64,000 bases of DNA from positions 124,001 to 188,000 of the forward strand of contig CAJXSL010000002.1 of NCBI GenBank assembly GCA_913060875.1, in the 5' to 3' direction. The position numbers and the translations under genes were made by a program. The number at the start of each line of letters is the position of its first letter. Within the stretch, counting starts at the first letter, position 1. The notes beneath the pieces were generated by a model that was given only the letters and a program-made list of their open reading frames with translations, had not been told where the DNA came from and did no database searches. Below, one piece after another: positions 29,957 through 54,117 of the stretch. The DNA comes from an uncultured Desulfobacteraceae bacterium (GTDB lineage Bacteria; Desulfobacterota; Desulfobacteria; Desulfobacterales; UBA5852).

Positions 29957-30138
29957 GGAGCTAATCGTTGATGAACCGGCTATTGCCATGAGCGCATTCT
30001 GCAACTTGATCGCCACACGATAGCACCTCGTTTTCGAATTTGAGCAACTGCCGGAAACAGATTCAACAGTATGGGTTGCAGGTCGTTAACTTATTTGATG
30101 ATCCAACAATAGATCAGACTTGTTCAGAGGGATTCGCT

Positions 30139-30639
30139 TTGTCCACCAGCCGCGCCAAAAAACGGGTTTTAATTGTCGATGATGACAAAAACCAGGCGCT
30201 GCTGCTGCGATCCCTCATGCAGGCCAATGGGTTCAAGCCTTTGCTGGCCGGCAGCAAACCGGAAGGCGTCCGCATGGCCGAACGGGAAAATCCCAGCTGC
30301 ATCATCCTCAACTGCATGATGTGCGGCGAAGAAGGCTTTTGCCTCTATCGGCACTTCAAATCCGAGGCGGCCTTTCGGGATGTGCCGGTTATCATGCTCT
30401 CCTCGGTGAGCCGGGACCTTCTTTTTGGCTACCGCACCCTGGCCGGTGCCTTCGGCGGCGGCCAGGCGCCCGAACCGGAAGCTTTTCTCAAAAGTCCGAT
30501 GGACGTGGACGAACTGGTGGACACGGTGGAACGTTTAACCGGATCCGAGCAACGACCCCGGGTAAAAGGGGCGGACGGCGAACAGGGCGCGTCATCAACG
30601 TCACCCTCGCCGACGGATCCATCAACGTCTTCGTTCTGA
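30139..30639 (+). CDS. Receiver-like protein lacking the phospho-acceptor Asp
   Basis: A 166-residue protein with one receiver-type domain (RVLIVDDDKNQALLLRSLMQ), in which the position of the phospho-Asp is Asn58 (SCIILNCMMCGEEGF). The acidic DDD and a Lys near the end (FLKSPMD) remain. It may be locked in one state or bind partners without phosphorylation. The TTG at 30139 has AGAGGGA about 7 nt upstream; TTG at 30040 would add 33 residues of poorly structured sequence. It is the first gene after the sigma-54 promoter and precedes the first HdrA by 64 bp. Confidence 0.75.
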   Translation: MSTSRAKKRVLIVDDDKNQALLLRSLMQANGFKPLLAGSKPEGVRMAERENPSCIILNCMMCGEEGFCLYRHFKSEAAFRDVPVIMLSSVSRDLLFGYRTLAGAFGGGQAPEPEAFLKSPMDVDELVDTVERLTGSEQRPRVKGADGEQGASSTSPSPTDPSTSSF

Positions 30640-30703: not shown

Positions 30704-33700
30704 ATGGCACTTCGAATCGGATTTTACATTTGCCATTGCGGCATCAACATCGCCTACAAGGTTCGTGTTGAAGAAGTTGCGGACTTTGTCCGCCAGCTTC
30801 CCGACGTGGCGGTATCCCGGGACTACAAATTCATGTGTTCGGATCCGGGTCAGGAGATGATTGAAAAGGACATTGCCGCCTTCAATCTCAACCGGGTGGT
30901 GGTGGCCTCCTGTTCACCGCGCATGCATGAAAAAACCTTCCAGGGCGCCTGTCAGCGGGCGGGCATCAACCCGTATCTTTTCCAGATGGCGTCGGTGCGC
31001 GAGCAGGTCTCCTGGGTGACCCTGGACGAGGATGAGGCCACCCTGAAAGCCAAAACCCTGGCAGCGGCGGCGGTCAACCGGGTGCGCTACCATCACGAAC
31101 TGGAAAGCCGCGAGGTTTCGGTCCATCCCGACATCATGGTGGTGGGGGGCGGTATTGCCGGCATGCAAGCCGCCCTGGATATCGGCGCATCCGGGCACCA
31201 GGCCTATCTCGTGGAGAAAAGCACCACCATCGGCGGCCATATGCTCCAGTTTGACAAGACCTTTCCCACCCTGGACTGCGCGGCCTGTATCGGCACCCCC
31301 AAAATGGTGGATGTGGCCCAGAACCCCAACATCCATCTGCTCTCCTACAGCGAAGTCAAGGAGGTCTCCGGCTATATCGGCAACTATACCGTCAAGATCG
31401 AACGCAAGCCCCGCTACATCAAAGAAGGCGTCTGCACGGGTTGCGGCGAGTGCACCAAGGTGTGCCCGGTATCGATGCCCAGTGAGTGGGACGAGGGCTT
31501 GGGGGATCGCAAGGCCATCTACCGCGCTTTTCCCCAGGCGGTGCCCATCACCTTCTGCATCGACAAGCTGGACCGCGCGCCCTGCGTGTCCGCCTGCCCG
31601 GCCCACGCCAATGTTCAAGGCTACGTCCAGCTCATTAAAATGGGCAAATACAAGGAAGCCCTGCAGCTCATCATGGAAAAAATCCCCCTGCCCGGGGTCC
31701 TCGGGCGGGTCTGCCCCCACCCTTGCGAAAGCCAGTGCCGGCGCCAGGACGTTGACGCCGCCATCGCCATCCGCGACCTGAAACGTTTTGCCGCCGACCA
31801 GGTGGACTTTGCGACATTGGAGCTGCCCCCCATCGAGGAAAAAGACAAGAAGGTGGCCGTCATCGGGTCCGGACCGGCCGGCTTGACCGCAGCCTTCGAC
31901 CTGCGCAAAGCCGGCTACCAGGTGACGATCTTCGAAGCCCAGGAGCAGCTGGGCGGCATGCTGCGGGTGGGAATACCCGACTACCGGCTGCCGCCGGAGG
32001 TGCTGGACCGCGAAATCGGCTATATCCTGCGCATGGGGGTTGAAACACGTACCGGGGTGAATTTCGGCACCGACATCACGCTGGAATCCCTTCAGTCCGA
32101 CGGCTATGACGCCGTCTTTCTGGGCATCGGGGCCCAGGAATGCATGAAACTCAACATCCCGGGAGAAAACGAGGCCGAACAGGTGGTGGATGCCGTGTGT
32201 TTTCTGCGGGAAGCCAATCTCTCCCGCACCCCCAGCCCGGGCCGCAACGTGGTGGTGATCGGCGGCGGCAACGTTGCCATCGATGCCGTGCGGGTGGCCA
32301 AACGCCTGGGGGCCGAAAAGGTCACCCTGGTCTACCGCCGGACCGAGGCCGAAATGCCCGCCGAAGAAGAGGAAATCAAAGGTGCCCGGGAAGAAGGCAT
32401 CGCGTTTCATTTTCTCACCTCGCCTGTGGAAGTCATCCAGGAAAACGGCCGTGTCACCGGTATCCGCTGTATCGTCAACGAACTGGGCGAACCCGATGCC
32501 AGCGGCCGCCGCCGTCCCGTGCCCGTGGACGGCAGCGAGTTTGTGCTGGAATGCGATGCCGTCATCCCGGCCATCGGCCAGCGTGTGGACCTTTCCTGGC
32601 AGGATCCGGTCTGCAGCCTGGAATGCACGCCGCGCAACCTGATCGTGGCGGACCCGGCAACCCTGCAGACCAGCCAGCCGCATATTTTCGCCGCCGGCGA
32701 CGCGGTCAGCGGACCGGCCACCGTGGTGGAAGCCATCGGTGCCACCCATCGGGCCGTGGAGAGCATGGTCCGGGATCTGGAGGGGCGCCTGGAGGCTGAT
32801 GCGAATCGTCCTGGCCCGGAGCCGGCCGCCGCGCCGGTTGGCGGCGCCAAACCGGCCGGCGAATGCACGTGGAACGATATACCGACGGAATGCGATCCCC
32901 AGCCGCGGGAAACCATCACCCACCTGGACTGGGCCGTGCGGGTGGCCGGTTTCGAGGAAGAATCCATCGGGCTGACCGAAGACCAGGCCCGGCGTGAAGC
33001 CGAACGCTGTCTGAACTGCGGGGTCTGTTCGGAGTGCATGGAGTGCGTCAAAGTCTGTGAAGCCAAAGCCATCGACCACACCCAGAAACCTGAAGAAATC
33101 GAAGTCAAAGTGGGCAGCATCATCCTGGCCACGGGCTACGATCTGCTTGATCCCAGCCCCATGAAGCAGTACGGCTACGGCCGCCTGCCCAACGTCTTCA
33201 CCAGTCTCGAGTTCGAACGTCTGAGCAACGCCACCGGCCCCACCGGCGGCAAAATCATGATGCGGGACGAGAATGGGGATTTCAGCCGCCCGCCCGAGAG
33301 TGTGGCTCTGGTTCACTGCGTCGGCAGCCGGGATGTCAACTACCATGAATACTGTTCCCGGGTCTGCTGCATGTACGCCCTGAAATACTCCCATCTGATC
33401 AAGGAAAAAGTGGGCCACCATACCAAGGTTTACGACTTCTACATCGACATGCGCTGTTTCGGTGAAGGCTACGAAGAATTTTACCGGCGCTGTCAGGAAG
33501 AGGGCACCACCTTCATCCGGGGCAAAGTGGCTGAAATCAGCGACCAGCCCCAGTCGCCCGAGGAGGAAGGCAAACTGGTGGCCATTGCCGAAGACACCCT
33601 GCTGGGCAAGCGGCTGCGGCTGCCGGTGGACATGGTCGTGCTGTGTTCGGCCATTCAGGCCCGCAGCGATGCCGTCGATGTGGGACGCATTTTTGGCGTG

Positions 33701-34141
33701 AATATCGGATCGGACGGTTTCTTTCTGGAAGAGCACCCCAAGCTGGGCCCCCTCAACACGGCCACCGACGGGGTGTTTCTGGCCGGGGTCTGCCAGTCCC
33801 CCAAGGATATTCCGGACACGGTGTCCCAAGCCTCCGGCGCTGCGGCCAAAGCGCTCTCCCTGGCAACAAAGGGCGAGGTGGCCGTTCCGTCGACCATCTC
33901 CTGGATCGACCCCGACATTTGCGCCGGCTGCCAGACCTGTATCGGACTGTGCCCCTACGGCGCCATCGAATTCGACGAACGGCGCGGTGTATCCGTGGTG
34001 AACGAGGCCGTCTGCAAAGGGTGCGGGAGTTGTTCGGGCTTCTGCCCCAGCGGTGCGGCGCAGGTCGCCCATTTCAATAAAGAAGAAATTTTTGCTGAAT
34101 TCGAGGGGCTGATGGATGCACTGCAAACCGTCGGTCAATAG
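30704..34141 (+). CDS. hdrA: HdrA-type flavoprotein with an inserted GltD-like module
   Basis: A 1145-residue redox flavoprotein. The N-terminal HdrA region (FYICHCGINIAYKV, CSPRMHEKTFQGAC) leads to a first FAD site GGGIAGMQAALDIG (about residue 148). Next comes a ferredoxin-type cluster CTGCGECTKVCP (about 244-255). Residues about 285-700 are a GltD/NfnB-like unit with its own dinucleotide sites GSGPAGLTAAFDL (about 386) and VVVIGGGNVAIDAV (about 516), and a CPHPCESQC cluster. HdrA sequence then resumes with CLNCGVCSECMECVKVC (about 768) and CVGSRDVNYHEYCSRVCCMY. It ends in two 4Fe-4S motifs (CAGCQTCIGLCP, CKGCGSCSGFCP). It probably takes electrons from NAD(P)H and splits or passes them to MvhD, FrhB-like and HdrBC partners. 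Confidence 0.88.
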   Translation: MALRIGFYICHCGINIAYKVRVEEVADFVRQLPDVAVSRDYKFMCSDPGQEMIEKDIAAFNLNRVVVASCSPRMHEKTFQGACQRAGINPYLFQMASVREQVSWVTLDEDEATLKAKTLAAAAVNRVRYHHELESREVSVHPDIMVVGGGIAGMQAALDIGASGHQAYLVEKSTTIGGHMLQFDKTFPTLDCAACIGTPKMVDVAQNPNIHLLSYSEVKEVSGYIGNYTVKIERKPRYIKEGVCTGCGECTKVCPVSMPSEWDEGLGDRKAIYRAFPQAVPITFCIDKLDRAPCVSACPAHANVQGYVQLIKMGKYKEALQLIMEKIPLPGVLGRVCPHPCESQCRRQDVDAAIAIRDLKRFAADQVDFATLELPPIEEKDKKVAVIGSGPAGLTAAFDLRKAGYQVTIFEAQEQLGGMLRVGIPDYRLPPEVLDREIGYILRMGVETRTGVNFGTDITLESLQSDGYDAVFLGIGAQECMKLNIPGENEAEQVVDAVCFLREANLSRTPSPGRNVVVIGGGNVAIDAVRVAKRLGAEKVTLVYRRTEAEMPAEEEEIKGAREEGIAFHFLTSPVEVIQENGRVTGIRCIVNELGEPDASGRRRPVPVDGSEFVLECDAVIPAIGQRVDLSWQDPVCSLECTPRNLIVADPATLQTSQPHIFAAGDAVSGPATVVEAIGATHRAVESMVRDLEGRLEADANRPGPEPAAAPVGGAKPAGECTWNDIPTECDPQPRETITHLDWAVRVAGFEEESIGLTEDQARREAERCLNCGVCSECMECVKVCEAKAIDHTQKPEEIEVKVGSIILATGYDLLDPSPMKQYGYGRLPNVFTSLEFERLSNATGPTGGKIMMRDENGDFSRPPESVALVHCVGSRDVNYHEYCSRVCCMYALKYSHLIKEKVGHHTKVYDFYIDMRCFGEGYEEFYRRCQEEGTTFIRGKVAEISDQPQSPEEEGKLVAIAEDTLLGKRLRLPVDMVVLCSAIQARSDAVDVGRIFGVNIGSDGFFLEEHPKLGPLNTATDGVFLAGVCQSPKDIPDTVSQASGAAAKALSLATKGEVAVPSTISWIDPDICAGCQTCIGLCPYGAIEFDERRGVSVVNEAVCKGCGSCSGFCPSGAAQVAHFNKEEIFAEFEGLMDALQTVGQ

Positions 34142-34187
34142 GCTGCGCATCCGAATTCCCGGAGAAATTATTTAATTGGAGGAACGC

Positions 34188-34610
34188 ATGGAAAATTTTG
34201 AGCCCGTACTCGTCGCGTTTGTCTGCAACTGGTGCACTTACACGGCGGCCGATCTCGCCGGCACCTCACGGCTGAGCTATCCCAAAAACGTGCGGCTGAT
34301 CCGGGTCATGTGTACCGGGATGGTCGACCCACAGTATGTGATCAAAGCCCTGCTGGAGGGTGCCGACGGCGTTTTGGTCAGCGGCTGCCATCCGGGCGAC
34401 TGCCACTACATCAACGGCAATTACAAGGCCAGACGGCGCATCAAGCTGCTCAAAGAAATCCTGCCCCAGTTCGGTTTCGAGCCGGAACGCCTGCGGCTGA
34501 CCTGGATCGGTGCCAGCGATGGTATCGAATTTGCCGAAATCATGCAGGAACTTGTCAAGGAGCTCAAAGCCCTGGGACCGAGCCAGGCCAAAATGAAAAT
34601 GGTGGTTTAA
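34188..34610 (+). CDS. mvhD: MvhD-type hydrogenase/heterodisulfide reductase iron-sulfur subunit
   Basis: A 140-residue MvhD/FlpD-family protein that carries a 2Fe-2S cluster and links an electron donor to HdrA. The four Cys are visible in VAFVCNWCTYTAADLAGTSR, IRVMCTGMVDP and VSGCHPGDCHYINGN. The ATG at 34188 has TTGGAGGAA upstream. It is 46 bp after hdrA in the same operon. All key positions are Cys; none is replaced by TGA. Confidence 0.92.
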   Translation: MENFEPVLVAFVCNWCTYTAADLAGTSRLSYPKNVRLIRVMCTGMVDPQYVIKALLEGADGVLVSGCHPGDCHYINGNYKARRRIKLLKEILPQFGFEPERLRLTWIGASDGIEFAEIMQELVKELKALGPSQAKMKMVV

Positions 34611-34672
34611 ACCGGCGGGTTCCATGGGCGGCGCAACCGTTCGCCCCCCCGCAACGCGAGCATGGAGGAGCC

Positions 34673-35812
34673 ATGGCGATCACGGCAACCATTGAAGTTA
34701 ACCAACAGGACTTATTGACAAGTTTGAAGGCCTTCTGCACCAAGCTGCTCGAGCAGGACGCCATCAGCGCCATTCTGGTGCCCCAGCGGCTACCCATGAA
34801 AAGCATGGTGATGCCCACCCTGGTGACCGAAGCCGATCATTTGGATGGGGTCGATCCGCTGTCCCCCGCCTTTCCCATGAACGGCGCCAAGGTGCTGGCC
34901 AAGCTCACCCGCCGGCCTTCCGGCGGCAAGATTGCGGCCATCATGCGCCCCTGTGAAATTCGGGCTTTCATTGAACTCGTCAAGCTCAAGCAGGCCCGCA
35001 CCGAAGATGTGGTGCTGATCGGCATGGACTGTCTGGGGGCCTACGGCAACACCGACTATTTTCGGTTTGCCGGAGAGGATGCCGAAGCGGCCACCCGCCG
35101 GTTTTATGAATCCGTACTCGCCGGAAAAGGTGCGGCCCTGGACGGTGTGGACTTGACCACCGCCTGCCAGGCCTGCGAAGCCCCCTTCCCCACCAGCGCG
35201 GACATCGCCATCGGCCTGCATGGGGTCGATACCGGCCGCCATCTCCTGGTTCTGGGCCAAACCCCCGCCGGAGATGACCTGCTCCAGCAAATGGGGCTGC
35301 CCTCGAGCGAGGTACCGACGGAGCGCCAGGCCATCATGGACCAGCTGCGCACATCACGGGAAAAGTACCGGGACGACATGTTTGCCGCCACGGCCGCCGC
35401 TACCGACAACATCGACAAACTGAACACGTATCTGGCCAACTGCGTCAACTGCTACAACTGCCGGGTGGCCTGTCCGGTCTGCTACTGCAAGGAATGCGTT
35501 TTCGTGACGGACGTTTTCAATCACGACCCCTCCCAGTACCTGCGCTGGGCCAAACGCAAAGGGGCTGTAAAAATGCCCACGGACACGGTCTTCTATCACC
35601 TGACCCGACTGACCCATATGAGCACGGCCTGTGTGGGATGCGGTCAGTGCAGCAATGCCTGCCCCAACGATATCCCGGTCATGGAACTCTTCCGGATGGT
35701 GGCGCACAACACCCAGCGGGCCTTTGCTTATGAAGCCGGAAATAGCGTCGACGAGAAACCACCGCTGTCCGAATTCAAGGAAGACGAGTTCCAGGAAGTG
35801 GTCGGACTATAA
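34673..35812 (+). CDS. FrhB/FdhB-like electron-input subunit with 4Fe-4S clusters
   Basis: A 379-residue protein of the coenzyme F420 hydrogenase/dehydrogenase beta-subunit family. The N-terminal domain shows KIAAIMRPCEIRAFIELVKL and DVVLIGMDCLGAYGNTDYF. Two ferredoxin-type clusters follow (CVNCYNCRVACPVCYCKECV at about 256-275 and CVGCGQCSNACPND at about 322). This type feeds electrons from a flavin or formate/F420-like donor into HdrA complexes. The donor here is not known. Start: GGAGGAGCC before the ATG. Confidence 0.8.
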   Translation: MAITATIEVNQQDLLTSLKAFCTKLLEQDAISAILVPQRLPMKSMVMPTLVTEADHLDGVDPLSPAFPMNGAKVLAKLTRRPSGGKIAAIMRPCEIRAFIELVKLKQARTEDVVLIGMDCLGAYGNTDYFRFAGEDAEAATRRFYESVLAGKGAALDGVDLTTACQACEAPFPTSADIAIGLHGVDTGRHLLVLGQTPAGDDLLQQMGLPSSEVPTERQAIMDQLRTSREKYRDDMFAATAAATDNIDKLNTYLANCVNCYNCRVACPVCYCKECVFVTDVFNHDPSQYLRWAKRKGAVKMPTDTVFYHLTRLTHMSTACVGCGQCSNACPNDIPVMELFRMVAHNTQRAFAYEAGNSVDEKPPLSEFKEDEFQEVVGL

Positions 35813-35959: not shown

Positions 35960-38900
35960 ATGCAGACGAAAATCGGCAAGGCACTCGTGATTGGCGCCGG
36001 CATCAGCGGTATTCGTGCCGCCTTGGACCTTGCGGAATTCGGATATGGGGTCACCCTCATCGAGCGCTCACCGCATATTGGCGGCATCCTGAGTCAACTG
36101 GATTACCAGTTCCCCACCGATCGCTGCGGCATGTGTAAAATGCTGCCCCTTGTGGAACGGGACGCCGGCTCGCAATTCTGTCTGCGCAAGGGTCTGTTCC
36201 ACGACAATATCGACATCAAACTTTCCACGGAACTGGCTTCCGTGGAGGGCGAACCCGGCGATTTCAAAGTGACCCTGCGCCAGGAGCCCAATCCCGTGGA
36301 TGCCGCCCGCTGCATCGGCTGCGGCAAATGTGTCGATGTATGTCCGGTCACTGTGGCCGATGAATTCAATGCCGGCCTTACCACACGCAAGGCCATCTAT
36401 CTGCCGGTGCCCCACACCATCCCCAATCCCTATCGTATCGACACCGCCGCCTGCACCCAGTGCGGGGCCTGTCAGGAGGTTTGCCCCACGGAGGCCATTC
36501 GCCTGGTGGACGAGGGGCGCAAGGATTTCAATATCCTGGTGGTGGATGACGAGCTGATTGTGCGGGACTCCCTCAAGGAATGGCTGGAGGAGGAGGGCGG
36601 CTTCCACGTGTCCATGGCGGAAAGCGGCCAGGAGGCCCTGCAGCACCTTAAAACCGAAACCTGCCACCTCATGCTGCTGGATATCAAGATGCCCGGCATG
36701 GACGGGGTGGAGGTGCTCGAAAAAGCCAAGGAACTCTTTCCCGATCTCCCGGTGGTCATGATGACCGCCTATGCCACCGTGGAAACCGCGGTGGAAGCCA
36801 TGAAGATCGGCGCCCGGGACTATCTGATCAAGCCTTTTGACACCGATGCCCTGATTCCCAAGGTCATCCAGATATACCAGACCCTGAGCACGCCGCCCGG
36901 CCCCGAACTGGAAGTCGGCGCGATTGTAATGAGTGGCGGTACCAGCTACTACAACCCCGCCGATGGAAAGGACACTTACAGCTATGGCAGCCTGCCGGAC
37001 GTGGTCACCAGCCTGGAGTTCGAACGCCTGTTCAGCGGCACCGGCCCCAACGGCGGCCAACTTCTGCGACCATCCGACGGGCGCCCCATTCGCCGCATCG
37101 CCTGGCTCCAGTGCGTCGGGTCCCGGGACATGCAGAGCAACGCGGATTTCTGTTCGAACATCTGCTGCATGTATGCCATCAAAGAGGCCAATGTGGCCCG
37201 GGAGCGCGCCGCGCGGGCGGGCACCGAACTGGAAACATCCATCTATTATATGGACATGCGCACCTTCGGCAAAAGCTTTCAACGCTACCGGGACCGCTCG
37301 GAGGCCTCCGGGGTGGCTTTCAAACGCGGCCGCGTCCATTCGGTGGAGCCCGACCTGCAGGCCAACGATCTCCAGCTCCGATGGGCGGATATTGACGGCA
37401 ACGTTGCGGTCGACCACGTGGATCTGGTGGTACTGAGCGTGGGCCAGCGCCCGGCCGAGGGGACCCAGGCGCTCACCGAAACCCTGGGCATCGGTCTGAA
37501 TCCGTGGGGGTTCCCCCAAACGGAGCCGTTTTCCCTGACCCGCACGGAACGCGACGGCATCGTGGCGGCCGGCTCCTTCGCCGGTCTCAAAGACATCAGT
37601 GAATCGGTTACCCAGGCCAGCGCGGCGGCATTGGCCGCCTCCACGACCATCCACAACGCCGGCGGCAGTATCGGTCTTAAGGACCAGCCGGAAGCAATCT
37701 ACGCGGATGTCTCCCGCGAGACGCCCCGTATCCTGGTGACCGTCTGCACCTGCAGCGAGGCCGTTACCCAGGGGGTGGACCAGAAGGCCCTCACCCACCA
37801 CCTCAAAAGCGATCCGGCCGTCGACCGGGTGGAATTTCTTGACGGCACCTGCACGGCCGAAGGGTGGGACAAACTCGTTGCCCTGGTCAAACAGCACCGG
37901 CCCAACCGCCTGCTGATCGGCGCCTGCCTGCCGTATGTCTACGCCCGGAAATTGAAAGCCCTGGGGACCGAAGTGGGACTGGACCCGCGCCTGATGGAGG
38001 TGGTGGATATCCGCACACCTGTTTTCCAGGCGGCGCGTGAGGATGCCCCGGAAGGTACCGAGCCATCGGCCGTAACGGTCCAGCGGCTTTTGGCCATGGC
38101 GGTGGCCCGGTTGCGCCGCATCAGCCCTGCCCCTGTGGCCACCGTCCCGGTCTTTCAGCAGACCCTGGTGGTCGGCGGCGGCATCGCCGGCATGACGGCC
38201 GCCCTGGCGATCGCCGATCATGGCTTCACCGTGGACCTTGTGGAAAAAGACAAAGCGCTCGGCGGCAATCTGCAATGGCTGAGCAAAACCATCGACGGCC
38301 AGGACATCCGTGCGTTTTTGGAAGACACCCGCAATCGCGTGACCGGCCATCCGCAGATCAATCTCCATCTCGACACCCGGGTGATCGCCGCCTTCGGACA
38401 GGCCGGGACGTTCTACAGCACCCTCGAGGACGGCGACGGCAATGCCGTGCAGGTCAATCATGGGGCCACCATCCTGGCCACCGGCGGCCACGAAGCCGCC
38501 ACAACGGCTTACGGGTTTGGCACCAGCCCCCGGATCGTCACCCAGCAGAATCTCGAAGCTCAACTCCATGACGGCACCCTCGATCCGACACAATTGCATA
38601 CGGTGGCCATGATTCAGTGCGTGGACTCCCGCGAGGAGCCCCGCAACTACTGCAGTCGCGTCTGCTGCAGCACATCGCTGAAACATGCCCAGGCCCTGAA
38701 AGCCGCCAATCCATCCCTGCGCATCGTGGTCTTCTACCGGGACATGATGAGCTACGGCTTTATGGAGTCCTATTTTACCGAGGCCCGCAAATCCGGCATC
38801 ACCTTCATCCCCTACACGCTTGACCGCCGTCCTGCCGTGGCCGCCGATGGAACCGACGGCGATCGGGTCACGGTTTCGGGTTATGAACCCATCATCGGAC

Positions 38901-39409
38901 AGCCGGTTGAAATGACCGCCGACCTGGTGGTTCTGGCCACGGGCATCGTACCCGAGCTACCCGGGGAACTGGCCGACGCCTACGGTGTCGCGCGGGATGA
39001 GGACAACTTTTTCCAGGAAGCCGAGTCCAAGTGGCGACCGGTGGACGCCCTCAAGGAAGGCGTCTTCGCCTGCGGCATCTGCCAGGCACCACGCAACATT
39101 CATGAATCCATCGCCACCGCCGAAGCGGCGGCCGAGCGGGCGCTGCGGATCCTTGGCCGCGAGCGTCTGCCGTCCGGTACCATCGTGGCCCGCATCCATG
39201 AAAGCCTGTGTTCCCTGTGCGAACGCTGCGTCGAGGCCTGCCCTTATGGCGCCCGCAGCCTTGACCCTGAGAATGAACGCATTGTCGTCAATCCGGCCAT
39301 GTGCCAGGGATGCGGCGCCTGCGCGGCGACCTGCCCCAACAACGCGGCCTATATCGAGGGTTTCGATGCGGAACAGTTGATGGACGTCATCGACGCCGCC
39401 TTGAACTAG
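35960..39409 (+). CDS. hdrA: Double HdrA-type flavoprotein with an inserted CheY-like receiver domain
   Basis: A 1149-residue fusion. HdrA unit 1 has the FAD site VIGAGISGIRAALDLAEFG (about 9) and two clusters CIGCGKCVDVCP (about 117) and CTQCGACQEVCP (about 165). A complete receiver is inserted at about 190-312: acidic Asp196/Asp197, phospho-Asp241 in LMLLDIKMPGMDG, Thr269 and Lys291. HdrA sequence then continues (LEFERLFSGTGPNGGQ, CVGSRDMQSNADFCSNICCM). Unit 2 starts near residue 620 with a second FAD site VVGGGIAGMTAALAI (about 736), CVDSREEPRNYCSRVCC and a terminal pair CSLCERCVEACP / CQGCGACAATCP. The frame has no stop or shift, so the receiver is truly in line. Phosphorylation could gate electron flow; this is inference. 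Confidence 0.88.
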   Translation: MQTKIGKALVIGAGISGIRAALDLAEFGYGVTLIERSPHIGGILSQLDYQFPTDRCGMCKMLPLVERDAGSQFCLRKGLFHDNIDIKLSTELASVEGEPGDFKVTLRQEPNPVDAARCIGCGKCVDVCPVTVADEFNAGLTTRKAIYLPVPHTIPNPYRIDTAACTQCGACQEVCPTEAIRLVDEGRKDFNILVVDDELIVRDSLKEWLEEEGGFHVSMAESGQEALQHLKTETCHLMLLDIKMPGMDGVEVLEKAKELFPDLPVVMMTAYATVETAVEAMKIGARDYLIKPFDTDALIPKVIQIYQTLSTPPGPELEVGAIVMSGGTSYYNPADGKDTYSYGSLPDVVTSLEFERLFSGTGPNGGQLLRPSDGRPIRRIAWLQCVGSRDMQSNADFCSNICCMYAIKEANVARERAARAGTELETSIYYMDMRTFGKSFQRYRDRSEASGVAFKRGRVHSVEPDLQANDLQLRWADIDGNVAVDHVDLVVLSVGQRPAEGTQALTETLGIGLNPWGFPQTEPFSLTRTERDGIVAAGSFAGLKDISESVTQASAAALAASTTIHNAGGSIGLKDQPEAIYADVSRETPRILVTVCTCSEAVTQGVDQKALTHHLKSDPAVDRVEFLDGTCTAEGWDKLVALVKQHRPNRLLIGACLPYVYARKLKALGTEVGLDPRLMEVVDIRTPVFQAAREDAPEGTEPSAVTVQRLLAMAVARLRRISPAPVATVPVFQQTLVVGGGIAGMTAALAIADHGFTVDLVEKDKALGGNLQWLSKTIDGQDIRAFLEDTRNRVTGHPQINLHLDTRVIAAFGQAGTFYSTLEDGDGNAVQVNHGATILATGGHEAATTAYGFGTSPRIVTQQNLEAQLHDGTLDPTQLHTVAMIQCVDSREEPRNYCSRVCCSTSLKHAQALKAANPSLRIVVFYRDMMSYGFMESYFTEARKSGITFIPYTLDRRPAVAADGTDGDRVTVSGYEPIIGQPVEMTADLVVLATGIVPELPGELADAYGVARDEDNFFQEAESKWRPVDALKEGVFACGICQAPRNIHESIATAEAAAERALRILGRERLPSGTIVARIHESLCSLCERCVEACPYGARSLDPENERIVVNPAMCQGCGACAATCPNNAAYIEGFDAEQLMDVIDAALN

Positions 39410-39483: not shown

Positions 39484-40071
39484 ATGACCGCGGTTGCGAC
39501 CCAAAACCGACCGGGTACGGAATCGGCCCCCGGGCCGGATGCCCTGAAGGCCATCCAGGACAAAATCAAGTCCTGCATTCAGTGCGGCACCTGTACCGCT
39601 TCCTGTCCCAATGAATTCGCCATGGACCTCACCCCGCGCCACCTCTGGCGCATGGTCCTGATGGGGGATACCGAAGACATCTTCGCCAGCCAAACCTTCA
39701 CCCTCTGCTCGGCGTGCTACACGTGCAGCCTGCGCTGTCCGCGCGGGCTGCCGCTCACCGAAGCCATGCACGACCTCAAACAGCTTGCGGCCAAGCACAA
39801 GCTTCCCCGCTACAAGGCCAGCACCGCATTTTACGGGCATTTCATGGACACGGTGCGGCGGCATGGGCGCATCCGTGAAACCGAGTTCATCTCCCGTTAT
39901 TTTATGACGATGACCCCCAGCAAACCCTTGATGCCGTTGAAATACACCAGTATGGGCCTCAAGTTGCTCCGCAAGGGCAAACTGCACATCGAAAATCCCT
40001 TTGCGGCACCCGGCAAGCAATCGCTGGAGGCCATCTTCCAAAAAGTGGAATCCATGGAGGAACGGGCATGA
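39484..40071 (+). CDS. hdrC: HdrC-type 4Fe-4S subunit
   Basis: A 195-residue ferredoxin-like subunit with two 4Fe-4S motifs, CIQCGTCTASCP and CSACYTCSLRCP, that passes electrons from HdrA to HdrB. It carries a basic helical C-terminal region (TSMGLKLLRKGKLHIENP) in place of the membrane part found in DsrM/HdrE types. AAAAGGAG stands before the ATG. It overlaps hdrB by 4 bp (ATGA), indicating tight coupling. Confidence 0.9.
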   Translation: MTAVATQNRPGTESAPGPDALKAIQDKIKSCIQCGTCTASCPNEFAMDLTPRHLWRMVLMGDTEDIFASQTFTLCSACYTCSLRCPRGLPLTEAMHDLKQLAAKHKLPRYKASTAFYGHFMDTVRRHGRIRETEFISRYFMTMTPSKPLMPLKYTSMGLKLLRKGKLHIENPFAAPGKQSLEAIFQKVESMEERA

Positions 40072-40946
40072 AATATCTTTACTACCCCGGCTGTTCGCTT
40101 CAGGGCACGGCGCAGGAGTACAACCAGTCCACCCGTGCCATGATGGCGGCACTGGACATTGAGCTGACAGAAATTGATGATTGGACCTGTTGCGGCGCCA
40201 GCGCGGCCGAATCGGTGAGCGAATTGCTGGCTTTGGCGCTGCCGGCCATCAACCTGGCCATTGCCGAGGCTATGGACGCCGATCAGGATATTCTCGTGCC
40301 CTGCAGCGCCTGTTACCTGAACCTTCGCAAGGTGGTTGAAACGGTTCGCCAGGACGAGACCGCCCTTGCGCGTGTCAACGAAGTCCTGGCGGAGAAGGAA
40401 CTTCATCTGAAAGGGGGGGCGAAGGTGCGCCACCTTCTGGATGTCATGGCCACGGACCTCGACCCGGAGGCCCTCCGCCAGCGTGTTCAGGTGGACCTGT
40501 CGCATCTGACGATTGCCCCCTATTACGGCTGCCAATGCCTGCGCCCCTACCCGGTATTCGACGACCCCGAGGAACCCCGCAGTATGGAGCCGCTGATCAG
40601 GGCGACCGGCGCTGCCGTACACCCCTGGAGCATGGGATCCAAATGTTGCGGCGCCTCCCACATGAACACCAAAATGGAGGTTGCATTGGAACTCGTCCAT
40701 GGTATTCTAAAAGGTGCCCAGGGGGCCGATGCCATCGTGACGGTTTGCCCCATGTGTCAGATGAACCTGGAAGCCTACCAGGATAAAATCGTTCAGCACT
40801 ACCGCGATGTCCAACCTGTCACGATATTGTATCTGCCCCAGCTTATCGGCATGGCCTTCGGTCTTCCGGACGACCAGCTGGGTTTGAACCTGAACCTGGA
40901 AATCCGTAGCGATTTCCGCAACAAACGAACCGCCGTGCCCGCTTGA
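40068..40946 (+). CDS. hdrB: HdrB-type subunit with two CCG domains
   Basis: A 292-residue subunit with two cysteine-rich CCG domains that in known HdrB enzymes bind noncubane 4Fe-4S clusters and carry out disulfide reduction. Visible motifs: YYPGCSLQGTAQEY and CCGASAAESVSELLALAL with VPCSACYLNLRK, then APYYGCQCLRPYPVF and SKCCGASHMNTKMEV with VCPMCQMNLEAYQ. The native substrate need not be CoM-S-S-CoB; a thiol such as DsrC is conceivable in a sulfate reducer. Confidence 0.92.
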   Translation: MKYLYYPGCSLQGTAQEYNQSTRAMMAALDIELTEIDDWTCCGASAAESVSELLALALPAINLAIAEAMDADQDILVPCSACYLNLRKVVETVRQDETALARVNEVLAEKELHLKGGAKVRHLLDVMATDLDPEALRQRVQVDLSHLTIAPYYGCQCLRPYPVFDDPEEPRSMEPLIRATGAAVHPWSMGSKCCGASHMNTKMEVALELVHGILKGAQGADAIVTVCPMCQMNLEAYQDKIVQHYRDVQPVTILYLPQLIGMAFGLPDDQLGLNLNLEIRSDFRNKRTAVPA

Positions 40947-40997: not shown

Positions 40998-42296
40998 ATG
41001 GGTGAAGCCGCTATAGATCTTGGGGAGGAACGCCCCAGCGTCTTCATGGAAAAAGTTAAGGAGATTCTACCGGATGGCGGCAATCTGGACCTCTGCCTGA
41101 CCTGCGGCGCCTGCGCCTCGGGTTGCCCGGCCAGTGGCCTGCACGGTATGGACCCACGCAAATTCCTGCGCATGGCCGCATTGGGACTGGATGAAGAAGT
41201 GACCAGTACCCCCTGGGTCTGGTTGTGCAGCATGTGTCAGCGCTGCATCTATGTCTGCCCGATGCAGATCGATATCCCGGCCCTGGTTTATCAGGCCCGC
41301 TCCATGTGGCCCCGGGAAGAACGACCCAAGGGCATTCTGGGCTCCTGCGACATGGCCCTGCGCAATGACAGTTGCAGCGCCATGGGCGCCTCACCGGAAG
41401 ATTTCCAGTTTGTGGTGGAAGACGTTCTGGAAGAAGTCCGCGAAAGCCAGCCCGGTTTCGAAGACCTGCAAGCCCCCATCGATAAACAGGGCGCTCACTT
41501 CTTCCTGAACCAGAACTCCCGGGAACCGGTCACCGAGCCGGATGAAATGATCCCCCTCTGGAAAATTCTCCACCACGTGGGGGCCGATTGGACTTACGGC
41601 AGCAAGGGCTGGGGCGGTGAAAACTACTGCATGTTCCTGGCGGATGACGACAGCTGGAAAAAAACGGTGGCCACCAGTATTGGCCATGCCCATGAGTTGG
41701 GCTGCAAGGTCTATCTCAACACCGAATGAGGTCACGTGACCTACGCAGTCCGGGCCGGACTGCAAAAATTCGACATCGCCACGGATCTCGAAATCGCCAG
41801 CATCTATCAATACTATGCCCGCTGGATCCGGGAAGGCAAACTCAAAGTCAGCAGCGACTGGAACAAGGATCTTAAGATCAAGTTTACGGCACAGGATCCC
41901 TGCCAGATCGTCCGCAAGAGCTACGGCGATGCGGTGGCCGATGACCTGCGTTACGTCGTCAAAGCCGTGGTGGGGGAAGAAAATTTTGTCGACATGTACC
42001 CCAACAAGTCCAACAATTACTGCTGCGGCGGCGGGGGCGGCTTCCTGCAATCGGGGTACAACGACGAGCGGCGCGAATACGGCCGCCTTAAACTGGATCA
42101 AATCCTGGCCACCGGCGCCGATTATTGCATCGCCGCCTGCCACAACTGCCATGCCCAAATTCATGACCTGGCCGAGCACTACGAGGCCCCCTATCATACC
42201 GTTCATTTGTGGACCCTCATTTGCCTCTCCATGGGCATTCTGGGCGAAAACGAACGGGAATACCTGGGACCGGACCTGGCTGAAGTGGGCCTTTAA
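40998..42296 (+). CDS. HdrC/HdrD-like iron-sulfur protein, probable selenoprotein (TGA at 41727 as Sec)
   Basis: Reading through the in-frame TGA at 41727-41729 gives a 432-residue protein. Residues 1-100 are an HdrC-like pair of 4Fe-4S motifs (CLTCGACASGCP, CSMCQRCIYVCP). The rest has CCG-type domains: before the TGA GCKVYLNTE, after it GHVTYAVRAGLQKF. In this family the place is Cys, as in TECGH, so Sec244 replaces it. The second part has NNYCCGGGGGFLQSGYNDER and CIAACHNCHAQIHDL. Both halves share one frame, the downstream ATG-less segment has no ribosome site, and a hairpin follows the TGA (41745-41763). Operon: 51 bp after hdrB. Alternative reading: a nonsense mutation giving a dead protein. 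Confidence 0.85.
41745..41763 (+). promoter_or_regulatory. Bacterial SECIS-like hairpin after the TGA codon
   Basis: GCAGTCCG (41745-41752) pairs perfectly with CGGACTGC (41756-41763) over a GGC loop (41753-41755). The loop is about 24 nt past the TGA and starts with G, both as in the bacterial SECIS model (a 3-14 nt loop, G in one of the first two loop bases, 16-37 nt from the UGA). A further palindrome GGTCACGTGACC lies between TGA and the hairpin. Confidence 0.7.
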
Positions 42297-42522
42297 ACAA
42301 CTCCAGGGCCATGCCATAGAAAGGGAAAGGACGTACGCCGTGTCGTCATCTCACATTGACGAACCTTAAACGCCACACCTTTAAAGCAGTTCCTTAGATG
42401 TCGCTCCAGGCCCGGTTGTCGCGTGAAGATGACAACGGCGCGTTTTTCCAGCGCCTTAAAGCGCACAACCGGGTTTGTTTTGCCAATGCCGGGGGCAGCT
42501 TGCAACCGGACGGGAGAGGGTC

Positions 42523-44877
42523 ATGCTGGATCGAGTCCACAAACTTCGCAACATGCTTGTGGTCAAGCTCATCGTTGCCGTGGGATTGACCTTCCTGGTA
42601 AGCATCGCGGTCTGGGCCTATTTCAACATCCGCTACCAGAACAACAGACTCACCCAGCATATTCTCAACGAAACCGCCCGCTTCGGCAACACCATCAAGC
42701 TGGGCACCCACTACGCCATGATGAGCAACTCCCGGGACGATATCAATCAAATCATCCTGAATATCGCCCGCCAGAAAGATATCGAAACCATCCGCATCTA
42801 CAACAAAGCCGGCCAGATCAAATTCTCCAACTTGGCGGACGAAGTCGATCAGATCACCAATATCAAAGCGGAAGCCTGCGATGTCTGCCACCACTGGGAT
42901 CCCCCCCTGGTAACCCTCGAACCCGAGCAAGGCACACGCTTTTTCACCGATTCCTCCGGCCAGCGGGTCATCGGGGTCATCACACCGATCCTCAACGAGC
43001 CGGGCTGTGCGGAAGCCTGCCACTTCCATCCGGTGGACAAGAAAGTGCTCGGAGCGCTCGACGTGGTCTTTTCTCTGGAGAGGGTCCAGGCGGAAATGCA
43101 GCACTTCAAACGCGGCATCCTGATGCTGGCGGCATTTGTCTTTCTGGTCACGTCGGCCATTATCATGGCGGTCATGCTGCGTTTTGTAAATCGCCCCATT
43201 CGAGGCCTGATCAACAGGACTCAGCAAATCGCCAAGGGAGACTACAGTTCCAAGGTTCCGGTGGACGGCGAGGATGAAATCAACCAACTGGCCGTGGCCG
43301 TCAACCGCATGGGCGACGAAATCGCCCGCAGTCAGACCGATTTGCAGCGCCAACGCAATGAATACCAGAATCTCTTTGAAAATGTTCCCTGCGAAATCGC
43401 CGTTCTCGACAGGGATTACCGTCTGGTCAACTTCAACCAAAGGTATTTGAACAAATTCAACCCGGTCATGGGAGACTTTTGCTATAAAGCCTACAAAGGC
43501 CGGGATTCCAAATGCCGGGATTGCCTGGTGGAAAAAACTTTCGAGGGTGCCGGCCCGCAGTTGGGCGAAGAAACCGGATACGACAAAAACGGCCAGCCGG
43601 CCCATTGGCTGGTGGTCACGTCTCCGCTGGCGGACGACACCGGCCAGATCACCGGCGCCATGGAAATGAATCTGGACCTCACGGACATGAAGGTCCTGGA
43701 AGACAAACTGCGCCAATCCGAAAAAAAATACCATGCTTTTTTCAACAACATCCCCAACCCGGTATTCGTGCTGGATGCCGACAGTCTCGACATCCTGGAT
43801 TGCAACGCCAGTGTCAAGGCGGTTTACGGTTATGAAAAATTTGAATTGTTGGGGATGTCTTTTCTGAATTTTTTCGTGGACGAGGAGAAAGAGGCCTACG
43901 CCGAAGCAATTTCGAGTGTATCGGTCATGAACCGGGTCAAGCATGTCAAGAAATCGGGGATACCGCTCTTCGTCAACATTCGTATTTCCCCTTCCAACGA
44001 TGAAGGTCATAAGGTTTTTCTCGTCACCACCAGCGATATCACCAAGCGGCTCGAAGTCGAACAGCAGTTGATTCAGGCCAGCAAAATGGCCACCTTGGGC
44101 GAGATGGCCACCGGTGTGGCCCATGAATTGAACCAACCGTTGTCCGTCATCAAAACCGCCAGCAGCTTCCTGCTCAAAAAAGTCCGCAACCAGGAACCCA
44201 TTGCCGACGATATCATGCAGACCATGACCGAAGAAATCGGCAGCCACATCAACCGCGCCACCAAAATTATCACGCATATGCGCGAGTTTGGACGCAAATC
44301 GGACATGGATATCGTGGCCGTGCCGCTCAATGACATCATCGAGCGGGCCTTTGAAATTTTCAGCCAGCAGTTGAAAGTGCGCGGGATCGATGTCCATTGG
44401 GACCTGGCAAAGGATCTGCCGCCCATCGAAGCCGATCCCAGTTGCCTGGAACAGGTGTTTATCAACCTGCTGGTCAATGCACGTGATGCCATTGAATCCG
44501 TCTGGGAGGCGGTTCCCGCCACCTCCCTGGAAGCGCCTTCCGATCCGCCGGTCAAACAGATCATCATCCGCACCCGCTGTCAGGACGATCGTGTCATCGC
44601 CGAAGTGGAAGACAGTGGCAGTGGCATTCCCGAGGCCATTCGGGAAAAAATCTTCGAACCTTTTTTCACCACCAAAGAGGTGGGCAAGGGAACCGGATTG
44701 GGGCTTTCCATCAGCTATGGCATTGTCAAAGATTGCCGGGGAACCATCCGGGCGGATACGATTCCGGGCAAGGGCGCACGGTTCACGGTATCCTTCCCTG
44801 CGGCCTGCCCCGGCGAAAACGGCGGCCTTTTCCTGGCACCTGACACGCATGCCGATGGAAACGCTAACTGGGGATAA
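42523..44877 (+). CDS. Membrane sensor kinase with periplasmic heme-type motifs
   Basis: A 784-residue kinase. TM1 (about 14-34) and TM2 (about 197-222) bracket a periplasmic domain of about 160 residues that carries C119-D-V-C122-H123 and C162-A-E-A-C166-H167, a classic CxxCH and a CxxxCH, so one or two c-type hemes are likely. Then HAMP, a Cys-bearing PAS ([16 protein letters not shown], about 320-340), a second PAS ([20 protein letters not shown]), HisKA ([20 protein letters not shown]) and HATPase with DSGSGIPE. The ATG at 42523 has GGGAGAGGG upstream. Its neighbours and promoter context imply that it senses redox state or an electron acceptor for the hdr system. Confidence 0.88.
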
Positions 44878-44881
44878 AACC

Positions 44882-46597
44882 ATGTTATTGCGCTATGAAC
44901 AGATTGGCGAAATTTTTGACCTCCTGTCTCTTGGCGTTATTGTGCTGTCGCCGGAACGCCGGATCGTGTCATTGAACCATGCCGCTGAAGCCCTGACCGG
45001 GAAAAAAGCCAGTGAGGTGCTGGGGAAAAACTGCTACGAAATCTTTCTGGATTATCTGTGCGCCGGCAAATGCAAATACCTCGATGACCCTGATGCGGAA
45101 ATCGAAACCCATGTCAATGAAATCGACTTCGTCGACCACAACCAGCGTCAGTGCAGCCTGACCAAAATCGAAACCCCGGTTTTCGATGCCAATCACCGTT
45201 TGATAGGCTGCATCGAGGTTTTTCAGGACCATTCGGCCTTCCGGGACCTGATCAAACGCATCCGCTTCGAAGATCTGCGGCTTAAGATCATTCTGGACAA
45301 TCTCGACATAGGCGTGCTGACCGTCGATCGCGGCAATCATATTTCTTTTTTCAATACCATGGCCGAAAAGATTACCGGATATTCCCGGAGCGAACTTCTG
45401 GGAAAATCCTGTGGCAGGGTTTTCGGCCCCCGTTTCGGCAATGATTTTCAAAATGACCCCCATTCTCTGGAGGACGACAACGGCCACATCCGGGTTGAAA
45501 CCGATCTGGCCACCCGCGAAGGCCAACGCATTCCCGTCAAGGCCAACTATGTCCCTTTGAAAAATGAAGAGGGCTCTGTTGTCGGGGGGCTCACCACCAT
45601 TTCCGATCTCTCCCTCCATTACCATTACAAAAGCGCCATCCAGGGGCAGTACACGTATTACGATATGGTGGGCCGCCACCCCGAGATGCAGAAAATATTC
45701 GAGATTCTGCCGGTCATCGCTTCCAGTGATGCCACCGTTCTCATCGAGGGACCCACCGGCACCGGCAAGGATCTTCTGGCGAAAATCATTCACAACACCA
45801 GTGAGCGTGCGGATCGCAAGCTGATCAAGGTGAATTGTGCCTCGCTGCCCGACAACCTGTTGGAATCGGAAATGTTCGGTTATGTCAAAGGCGCCTTCAC
45901 CGGTGCGGATCGCGATAAACCCGGACGATTTCAACTGGCGGACGGCGGCACCATTTTTCTGGATGAGATCGGCGACTTGCCGCTGCCCCTGCAGGCCAAA
46001 CTGCTGCGCGTCATCGAAGACCGCGAATTTTATGCCCTGGGCAGCCGCCAGACCACCCAAGTCGATGTACGCATCATCTCCGCCACCAATCAAAATCTGA
46101 AACACATGGTGGACGAAAAAAAATTCCGTGAAGACCTCTACTATCGTCTCAACGTGATGCGGCTGGAGATACCGGCATTGAAAGACCGCAAAAGCGACCT
46201 GCCGCTGCTGATCGAGCATATTCTCAAACGCATCTGTACGACGAAGCATACCGACATCAGCCGCATCGACGAATCCGCCATGGAAGTTCTGCTCAATTAC
46301 GACTATCCCGGAAACGTCCGCGAGCTTGAAAACATCCTCGAGCATGCCCTCATCATTTGCCGCGGCGATGTCATCGAAAGAAACCATTTTCCGTTGTGGC
46401 TGCTCAAAAATGTAACCGACGAGGCCTCGGACGAAGGGAACGCCCGATCGGCACGGCGCGTGTGGGACGAAAAGGAACGCATCATCGACACCCTCCGACG
46501 CTATCGCTGGAACAAAAGCCATACGGCCCGCGCCCTGAACATGGACCGGACCACGTTATGGCGCAAAATGAAAAAATACCAGATCGGACAAAACTGA
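44882..46597 (+). CDS. Sigma-54-dependent activator with two PAS domains
   Basis: A 571-residue NtrC-class activator without a receiver. PAS 1 (about 10-125) has a Cys cluster (NCYEIFLDYLCAGKCKYLDD). PAS 2 (about 140-245) follows. The AAA+ domain has GPTGTGKD (Walker A), GAFTGA at 337-342 (sigma-54 contact), GGTIFLDEIGDLPL (Walker B) and the R finger in ISATNQNLKH. A Fis-type HTH ends the protein (NKSHTARALNMDRTTLWRKM). It lies 4 bp after the kinase stop and probably drives the promoter at 29941. Confidence 0.93.
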   Translation: MLLRYEQIGEIFDLLSLGVIVLSPERRIVSLNHAAEALTGKKASEVLGKNCYEIFLDYLCAGKCKYLDDPDAEIETHVNEIDFVDHNQRQCSLTKIETPVFDANHRLIGCIEVFQDHSAFRDLIKRIRFEDLRLKIILDNLDIGVLTVDRGNHISFFNTMAEKITGYSRSELLGKSCGRVFGPRFGNDFQNDPHSLEDDNGHIRVETDLATREGQRIPVKANYVPLKNEEGSVVGGLTTISDLSLHYHYKSAIQGQYTYYDMVGRHPEMQKIFEILPVIASSDATVLIEGPTGTGKDLLAKIIHNTSERADRKLIKVNCASLPDNLLESEMFGYVKGAFTGADRDKPGRFQLADGGTIFLDEIGDLPLPLQAKLLRVIEDREFYALGSRQTTQVDVRIISATNQNLKHMVDEKKFREDLYYRLNVMRLEIPALKDRKSDLPLLIEHILKRICTTKHTDISRIDESAMEVLLNYDYPGNVRELENILEHALIICRGDVIERNHFPLWLLKNVTDEASDEGNARSARRVWDEKERIIDTLRRYRWNKSHTARALNMDRTTLWRKMKKYQIGQN

Positions 46598-48666: not shown

Positions 48667-48693
48667 TTGACAACTTATGCTACTTTCTATACC
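48667..48693 (+). promoter_or_regulatory. Candidate sigma-70 promoter for livM
   Basis: TTGACA (48667-48672) and TATACC (48688-48693) are 15 nt apart, 79 bp before livM. The -35 is perfect; the spacing is short. Confidence 0.35.
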
Positions 48694-48771
48694 CTGCCTA
48701 GCGACGTTCATCATTCAGCCGGCAAACAAACCATATCATCACCCGTACTTGGCTTTCCGGAAATCACCACC

Positions 48772-50892: not shown

Positions 50893-50899
50893 TTATAAA

Positions 50900-52300: not shown

Positions 52301-52304
52301 AAGA

Positions 52305-54116: not shown

Positions 54117-54117
54117 C

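Follow-up and report, generated by a model that had tools for sequence, protein, structure and literature searches.

The HdrA flavoprotein encoded near the middle of the window (the whole stretch of DNA analysed, 64,000 nucleotides from an uncultured Desulfobacteraceae bacterium) carries a CheY-like receiver domain inserted into its first unit. We propose that this HdrA is a bifurcating (or confurcating) enzyme controlled by phosphorylation: an adjacent kinase would phosphorylate Asp241 of the receiver and so tune bifurcation or the exit of electrons to ferredoxin, a reading to which we assign a probability of roughly 55%. Electron-bifurcating complexes determine how much energy many anaerobes have to spend, and to our knowledge such complexes are controlled through expression and substrate supply. 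If the proposal is true, a receiver in the exit joint of HdrA is a post-translational throttle on bifurcation, and the cell may adjust the enzyme up or down directly, beyond changing its amount.

Enzymes bearing receivers are a known kind. The open-licence literature searched returned no report of a receiver inside HdrA; the locus VIII figure of PMC2702500, which places a CheY-like regulator among the genes nearby, lies outside that search.

A receiver inside a tandem HdrA

The features of the locus, all on the forward strand, are:
28140..29687 (+), REC-PAS-HisKA-HATPase kinase (domain search)
30040..30639 (+), stand-alone receiver gene with Asn at the phosphosite, signature DDNSS (Pfam, alignment)
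30704..34141 (+), HdrL / type III-like HdrA with a GltD-like NAD(P)H domain (Pfam, NCBIfam)
34176..34610 (+), MvhD (FlpD) subunit (PF02662, E 4.1e-55)
34673..35812 (+), FrhB/FdhB-like Fe-S subunit (open reading frame listed from 34232; start inferred, the conserved part beginning at about 34673)
35960..39409 (+), tandem (type II-like) HdrA flavoprotein with inserted receiver, 1149 aa (open reading frame, Pfam, 5odc_A E 5.6e-121)
35975..36274 (+), N-terminal part (residues 6-105) of the first, TrxR-like FAD domain in unit 1 (Pfam, structure alignment)
36275..36508 (+), inserted ferredoxin domain, residues 106-183, directly 5' of the receiver (two 4Fe-4S motifs)
36527..36874 (+), CheY-like receiver, residues 190-305 (D196, D197, D241, T269, K291)
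36680..36682 (+), codon of the predicted phospho-acceptor Asp241 (open reading frame, alignment)
37718..39406 (+), second HdrA unit (residues 587-1149) with N-terminal, FAD and C-terminal ferredoxin domains (structure alignments)
39484..40071 (+), HdrC (Pfam, NCBIfam)
40068..40946 (+), HdrB with two CCG stretches (Pfam, NCBIfam)
40998..41729 (+), HdrC-like/DsrK-like Fe-S subunit, HdrC2 (Pfam, NCBIfam)
41736..42296 (+), CCG subunit like TmcB/HmcF, HdrB2 (NCBIfam)
42523..44877 (+), membrane histidine kinase with HAMP, PAS domains, HisKA and HATPase (listed from 42475; start inferred)
44390..46597 (+), receiver-less sigma-54 activator with PAS domains (real start probably near 44.88 kb)
46644..48158 (+), REC-PAS-HATPase kinase, no HisKA match (domain search)

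An earlier note, made from the letters alone, had described an uninterrupted frame of 1149 residues with two HdrA units and a complete receiver active site between the first FAD/Fe-S region and the rest of HdrA, and each of these points held on analysis. The two units are unequal copies: unit 1 (residues 1-185 and 315-580) comprises an FAD domain and the inserted ferredoxin without an N-terminal domain, and unit 2 comprises an N-terminal domain, an FAD domain and a C-terminal ferredoxin without an inserted one. The receiver follows the two 4Fe-4S motifs of the inserted ferredoxin domain (residues 113-130 and 159-181 by Pfam) and precedes the remainder of unit 1, whose FAD domain resumes at about residue 315 (36902). 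In the numbering of the solved HdrA 5odc_A, the alignment places the insertion between residues ~310 and ~317, the point where the chain leaves the inserted ferredoxin, the presumed exit of electrons, and re-enters the first FAD domain. The structure model keeps the fold of unit 1 around the insert (419 of 428 residues against 8rwn_A, rmsd 2.5) and is of low confidence in the FAD region at residues 43-79 (pLDDT below 50); the VIA rows of its structure comparison cover mainly residues 730-1069, and the 50 structure rows listed include no receiver structure and are uninformative on that domain.

The protein has an FAD domain with inserted ferredoxin and a C-terminal ferredoxin, as befits HdrA. 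It scores below the curated NCBIfam cut-offs (674.8 bits against 1100 for HdrA2, 535.4 against 1400 for HdrA), and we therefore take it to be an HdrA homologue outside the methanogen equivalogs. Its receiver matches Pfam Response_reg (PF00072) over residues 192-301 (E 1.5e-31, 109.3 bits against a cut-off of 30.2), has five strand-helix repeats of a (beta-alpha)5 fold in the model (residues 191-310, block pLDDT 68-89), and possesses all of Asp196, Asp197, Asp241, Thr269 and Lys291.

Conservation of the fusion and loss of receiver chemistry

The same fusion, for which the earlier note had suggested a domain search, is carried by 53 of the 146 genomes in the kinship sample (that of the window is one of the 53), counting matches that span residues ~1-330; one additional match, in genome G007, begins at residue 143 at a contig end and stands outside the 53. 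Its occurrence in many species rules out an assembly artefact or a chance open reading frame. The fusion queries favour recognisable receivers, and strongly decayed ones could escape them.

The five active-site residues are invariant in 50 of 50 sequences, and all five are retained in 57 of 78 distinct fusions. The remaining 21 have a degenerate receiver at the same insertion place and form one clean clade of loss, so the degeneracy that the earlier note had named as evidence against its proposal does occur, confined to this clade. Among intact fusions, receiver conservation roughly equals that of the best-conserved region of the enzyme. Where the flanks are 60-70% identical, receiver identity is 70% for intact fusions and 36% for degenerate ones, which argues that the chemistry, beyond the fold alone, is selected where it is intact. 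HdrA itself remains conserved in the degenerate clade, so phosphorylation is not a requirement of all such enzymes: these 21 evidently function in its absence. A single insertion followed by a single loss of chemistry fits the tree, in which the nesting of the degenerate clade inside the intact group has no starred branch. Separate insertions in the degenerate clade are unneeded: the site, an R-x-x-F receiver start and the tree grouping are shared with the intact fusions.

Neighbouring kinases and regulators

Within the next 4 kb downstream, a histidine kinase is encoded at 30 of 35 loci with an intact receiver, 0 of 18 with a degenerate one and 3 of 21 receiver-less loci; this count excludes loci with a short flank (6 of the 41 intact loci, 3 of the 21 degenerate ones and 12 of the 33 without a receiver) and kinase frames over 4.5 kb, and a 5.7-kb open frame on the opposite strand of L278, if counted, gives the degenerate group 1 of 18. 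NtrC-type regulators are found within 7 kb at 3 of 24 intact, 17 of 18 degenerate and 2 of 16 receiver-less loci (17, 3 and 17 dropped for short flank). DNA-binding receivers are thus rare near intact receivers and near-universal near dead ones. When degenerate and intact fusions are pooled, under labels slightly different from those of the split count, a kinase is present at 30 of 38 versus 3 of 22 receiver-less loci. Corrected for phylogeny, the association comprises 1-2 independent pairs (sign test p 1), with one gain and one loss only. Five intact loci have sufficient flank and no kinase within 4 kb (L127, L128, L141, L208 and L214); their genomes have a haem-sensor kinase match elsewhere, in one case only 38% identical.

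In the window, two REC-kinases (28140-29687 and 46644-48158) and a membrane HAMP kinase (42475-44877) do flank the fusion, as first described, and by position the HAMP kinase is the best phosphodonor candidate of the three. By eye it looks membrane-bound, with a periplasmic CXXCH: the stretch carries CDVCH (at 135) and CAEACH, predicted haem-binding motifs. It also has one PAS domain with three conserved Cys. Adjacent kinases usually carry a periplasmic sensor with two c-haem motifs: in relatives, CXXCH is borne by 25 of the 31 kinase frames scoring at least 300 bits, the other six being one locus-edge fragment and five shorter kinases, and five adjacent kinases lack the haem-sensor stretch and retain the kinase core. 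All 10 of 10 rows match Pfam Mcp40H-20_sensor with E values no worse than 0.1, the window protein falling just under its cut-off (26.1 bits against 27), and the best PDB rows for the sensor are 3b47/3b42 (E 0.02).

The haem-sensor kinase is not exclusive to intact HdrA, since members of its family are present in genomes of the degenerate clade (8 of 21) and in others (13 of 42); it is unmatched in 8 of 42 intact genomes, and no exclusive genome-wide pairing was found among the genomes compared. The best NCBIfam rows for the receiver are AtoC and ZraR, both far under their cut-offs, and the best for the kinase is AtoS, the pair of AtoC; AtoS tops all three window kinases with every row far under cut-off, so this likeness is no sign of specificity. 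REC-kinase co-divergence gives a weak signal (partial r 0.21; permutation p 0.02, without correction for the tree).

The stand-alone receiver at 30040, with Asn at its phosphosite, is unlikely to be a competing phosphate acceptor in the window. Among 17 such receivers just upstream of HdrL (window included), Asn is found in 6 and the full DDDTK in none; the one in L213, with DDDSK, may work. The sigma-54 activator at 44390 has no receiver and is ruled out as a direct partner of the kinase. Between 34000 and 43000, predicted terminators are not above shuffles (8 versus a mean of 8.4), and predicted promoters number 7 versus a mean of 3.1 (sd 1.9); neither is informative for operon limits.

Proposed control of electron flow, alternatives and known systems

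We suggest that the neighbouring membrane kinase would pass phosphate to Asp241 within HdrA unit 1, where the receiver occupies the joint that links the bifurcating FAD domain to the inserted ferredoxin, by which low-potential electrons presumably leave. The phosphate would alter the receiver face and thereby open or close either ferredoxin docking or an electron-gating domain movement; the input would probably be periplasmic redox or gas state sensed via c-type haem, together with the Cys-rich cytoplasmic PAS. According to PMC12350162, the inserted ferredoxin-like domain of HdrA is the anticipated electron exit and docking site, and movement of an arm formed by the N- and C-terminal domains seems to gate bifurcation. 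Insertion at 310/317 counts in favour of gating because it lies at the edge of that exit and docking domain. Direct kinase control of electron flow, which the earlier note had put forward as a possibility, is a well-supported inference from the 57 of 78 intact sites, the receiver conservation and the kinase distribution; that this kinase serves this receiver, and how and in which direction electron flow would respond, are also inferred. A more speculative extension, possible but held tentatively, is a transmembrane redox relay: the c-haem kinase would read the periplasmic electron chain (or a gas, e.g. NO), phosphorylate the exit joint and set the ferredoxin share of electrons in real time, and one lineage would have switched to transcriptional control, leaving a fossil receiver.

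The output could instead be transcription, with the receiver acting as a trigger enzyme that signals the redox state of HdrA to kinases, or as a sink that drains their phosphate. Kinases and receivers are clustered here, the window has a sigma-54 activator, and among the 24 intact loci flanked by 7 kb on each side, an NtrC-type regulator is nearby at 3 and a sigma-54 activator without a receiver at 5. We nevertheless consider this unlikely: 3 of 24 is a low rate for DNA-binding receivers, the window's activator lacks a receiver, and insertion at the electron exit exceeds a sink's needs. That the receiver fold merely shapes or plugs the exit ferredoxin domain, phosphorylation being unimportant, seems to us improbable for the family, given that every catalytic residue (five of five) is kept in the 57 other fusions and that relaxation is confined to the degenerate clade, which has no downstream kinase; it may well be true of that clade, all 21 cases of which keep the domain, the eight that were scanned still matching PF00072 weakly (E 6e-11 to 1e-4).

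Phosphorylation might also govern location or assembly and not catalysis, by deciding whether HdrA binds the membrane kinase or its partners (HdrL, the FrhB-like subunit, ferredoxin). The apparently membrane-bound candidate kinase and an insertion that adjoins the known docking surface are compatible with such a switch, which is inseparable from gating on sequence, context and model data; we give it a small share of the probability. If phosphorylation does tune the enzyme, gating of the low-potential branch, a structural question, becomes addressable by single-residue changes (D241A/E), and sister enzymes with a dead receiver or without one provide natural controls.

Type II HdrA has two thioredoxin-reductase domains, as described in PMC12054007. 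Both it and the solved HdrA structures (5odc/8rvu/7bkb) resemble the window protein in domains and fold, with FAD, inserted and C-terminal ferredoxins in common, but the window protein differs by its receiver between the inserted ferredoxin and the FAD domain. The N-terminal domain is on the second unit here, whereas two fused ANME HdrA show the opposite order (PMC9012536). Type III HdrA/HdrL and ANME-1 HdrA (with a GltD/NfnB-like insert) likewise carry a whole domain in or beside the inserted ferredoxin (PMC12054007 and PMC9012536); theirs is a redox domain with NAD(P)H as its presumed substrate, whereas that of the window HdrA is a signalling domain.

Bacterial and archaeal proteins that join a receiver and a metabolic enzyme in one chain have been noted, and a thioredoxin reductase from unfinished metagenomic sequence is among them (PMC5847659). 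Compared with enzymatic-output response regulators, the window receiver is internal, lies in a multi-cluster flavoprotein and is kept across many families with its operon. The closest non-HdrA receivers in the set belong to Usp-REC-Usp proteins of the same group (71-72% receiver identity; L147, L158 and L159), one of which is encoded at a distance of a few genes from the fusion in each of L147, L043 and L051; their flanks, which by sequence we take to be universal-stress-protein-like, differ from the HdrA flanks of the window receiver. The sensor of the window kinase resembles the c-haem periplasmic sensors of Geobacter (GSU0582/GSU0935, sCache_heme) by its Mcp40H-20_sensor and 3b47/3b42 rows, with two Cys-Cys-His motifs versus one in the GSU0582/GSU0935 type.

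The fusion protein and its insertion site

The fusion gene (35960..39409) is an unbroken open frame encoding 1149 residues, as the earlier note held, and the five active-site residues of its receiver (Asp196, Asp197, Asp241, Thr269 and Lys291) were found at the positions given there. Pfam places Response_reg at residues 192-301 (E 1.5e-31). It also finds 4Fe-4S motifs ahead of the receiver and at the C-terminal end, and unit 1 and unit 2 each show FAD-type domains. The closest solved structures are HdrA chains, with 5odc_A at the top (E 5.6e-121), aligned in four pieces:

Alignment of the fusion protein with HdrA chain 5odc_A
Piece 1: query 7-182, HdrA 145-310
Piece 2: query 315-515, HdrA 317-514
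Piece 3: query 587-757, HdrA 2-168
Piece 4: query 971-1145, HdrA 470-647

The break at query 182/315 agrees with the claim that the receiver lies between the FAD/Fe-S region and the remaining HdrA; at this point (HdrA 310 to 317) the receiver takes the place of some six residues. The four pieces, with FAD-type domains in both halves, likewise bear out the two HdrA units. These are mutually complementary: unit 1 has the FAD and inserted ferredoxin, unit 2 the N-terminal domain and C-terminal ferredoxin.

An AlphaFold2 model built from 15 sequences (mean pLDDT 80.3, pTM 0.80; residues 43-79 below 50) displays the receiver as five strand-helix repeats at residues 191-310. When unit 1 is superposed on 8rwn_A, an HdrA core, 419/428 residues fit at 2.5 Å (model residues 3-568), so the modelled receiver is an added domain which leaves the HdrA core unbroken. 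In solved complexes, according to PMC12350162, the inserted ferredoxin-like domain binds the next electron carrier and is the anticipated exit, and bifurcation seems to be gated by the movement of an arm that includes both terminal domains (N and C) of HdrA. Given its place of insertion and this exit, the receiver would be well sited to control the departure of electrons.

Conservation and loss of the receiver chemistry

The fusion has long been conserved at this exact site with intact receiver chemistry. In a first set of 50 distinct fusions (74 candidates before de-duplication; alignment from residue 20 or earlier to at least residue 290), the five active-site residues are invariant (50/50), and the receivers average 73% identity to that of the window, compared with 71% for residues 1-185, 57% for 315-590 and 52% for 600-1149. 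A more distant query recovered a second group; there are 78 distinct fusions in all. D-D-D-T-K is present in 57 of these; the 21 without it are the whole second group, with varied losses, and PF00072 was still matched by all eight degenerate receivers scanned (E 6e-11 to 1e-4).

In a tree of 95 HdrA proteins with the receiver columns excluded (short search, midpoint root for drawing), a branch with support 91 separates the receiver-less proteins from the rest; the 21 degenerate fusions form a single clade (support 100, starred). The best tree places this clade among the intact fusions, adjoining (support 93, not starred) those of relatives L213-L216, whose signature is intact. Where the HdrA flanks are 60-70% identical, mean receiver identity is 70% in the intact group versus 36% in the degenerate group; to judge from these sequences, the enzyme is maintained in the latter while its receiver drifts. 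Degeneracy across homologues, which the earlier note had set against its own reading, thus holds for one clade, whereas the other 57 fusions remain intact.

The proposed search for the same fusion elsewhere was productive. Using residues 1-330 as query (E 1e-45 or better), 68 of 146 genomes in a kinship sample, mostly of the window's own order, gave some match; by row count, the match spanned the entire fusion in 53, the window's genome among them. An even phylum sample of 395 genomes returned 49 with a match, 15 of them across the fusion, including three of the degenerate group. In a pattern scan of genome contigs, the fusion-covering matches among the 80 loci listed all had Desulfobacter- or Deltaproteobacteria-type titles; beyond these 80 loci, the fusion could also occur in other phyla. 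The window's genome holds 141 receiver matches and three more tandem HdrA-type loci, all without a receiver.

Among other receivers, Usp-REC-Usp-type proteins occur at L043:13169-14500, L147:12968-14290, L051:2831-4033, L158:7449-8846 and L159:597-1958, the stretches on either side of the receiver being ones we take to be Usp-like. In the set, no non-HdrA receivers come closer to the HdrA receiver than those of L147, L158 and L159 (71-72%), and their opening R-x-D/K-F linker is similar too. Just upstream of HdrL, the HdrA-type gene preceding the fusion, the window (30040-30639) and 16 other loci share a stand-alone receiver gene conserved in position; its active site is often degenerate, with Asn at the phosphosite in 6/17.

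Gene neighbourhood and the adjacent kinase

Where the receiver chemistry is lost, the gene context is different. Kinase, receiver and sigma-54 genes were labelled by profiles and BLAST in 98 fetched stretches, and loci with enough flank, window excluded, were counted:

Genes near HdrA by receiver group
Histidine kinase within 4 kb downstream: intact 30/35, degenerate 0/18, receiver-less 3/21
Kinase within 7 kb on either side: intact 22/24, degenerate 13/18, receiver-less 3/16
NtrC-type (receiver-bearing sigma-54) regulator within 7 kb: intact 3/24, degenerate 17/18, receiver-less 2/16

In 27 of the 30 intact loci the downstream kinase is on the same strand. For the 4-kb downstream count, Fisher p is 5e-10 for intact versus degenerate loci and 1e-7 for intact versus receiver-less ones, kinship ignored; a tree-based sign test of the kinase/receiver association yielded 1-2 independent pairs, placing significance out of reach. 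The degenerate group is not kinase-free, since 13 of its 18 loci have one within 7 kb, upstream of HdrA and mostly together with the NtrC-type regulator. In L217 and L219, two of the three exceptions among the receiver-less loci, one-domain receivers stand as genes of their own between Hdr genes and kinase, an arrangement that possibly resembles a pre-fusion state. Their layout, with HdrA lacking a receiver, is:

L217:6715-7590 and L219:6688-7555: two one-domain receivers, then a kinase, after HdrC2-HdrB2

The membrane kinase which the earlier note saw flanking the fusion lies 3 kb downstream of HdrA. This HAMP kinase (42475-44877) carries CDVCH and CAEACH flanked by two hydrophobic stretches. 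Of 31 kinase ORFs that score at least 300 bits against this kinase, 25 carry CxxCH and the same 25 the aligned C-x3/4-CH motif; the other six are one fragment and five shorter kinases. Mcp40H-20_sensor (Pfam) was matched by 10/10 rows, with the window's own scoring below cut-off, and 3b47 and 3b42 match the sensor at E 0.02. A C-[YF]...C..C motif within a PAS domain of the window's kinase is kept in 26/26 other loci checked. The haem-sensor family is matched in 34/42 intact genomes, including all five that lack a kinase within 4 kb of their intact HdrA, and in 8/21 degenerate-clade and 13/42 other genomes, which points to further partners besides intact HdrA. The top NCBIfam rows are AtoC and ZraR for the receiver and AtoS for the HAMP kinase; as AtoS also tops the window's two other kinases, this likeness singles out none of them.

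Other features of the window:
34176-34610: MvhD (FlpD) gene, overlapping the start of listed ORF 34232-35812, a FrhB/FdhB-like gene which therefore probably starts near 34673
42475-44877 and 46644-48158: three-Cys motif (CY/CF...C..C) in PAS regions of the two kinases
48667-55920: branched-chain amino-acid-type ABC transporter and acyl-CoA ligase-like gene after the kinase cluster, possibly a clue to which substrate is sensed or used

Proposed control of electron flow and known systems

We think that the adjacent kinase would phosphorylate Asp241, and that this phosphorylation would alter electron transfer from HdrA to ferredoxin. We infer haem binding by the sensor, the phosphotransfer, the effect on electron flow and its sign. 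The nearest described sensors to the window-type kinases are the Geobacter c-haem sensors, a family recently argued to be haem-bearing Cache domains (PMC12889525). Fused HdrA proteins of ANME archaea likewise have complementary units, but in the opposite order to the window's (PMC9012536). Receiver-bearing enzymes are already a recognised class, according to PMC5847659, and the HdrA-receiver fusion therefore extends a known class rather than founding a new one.
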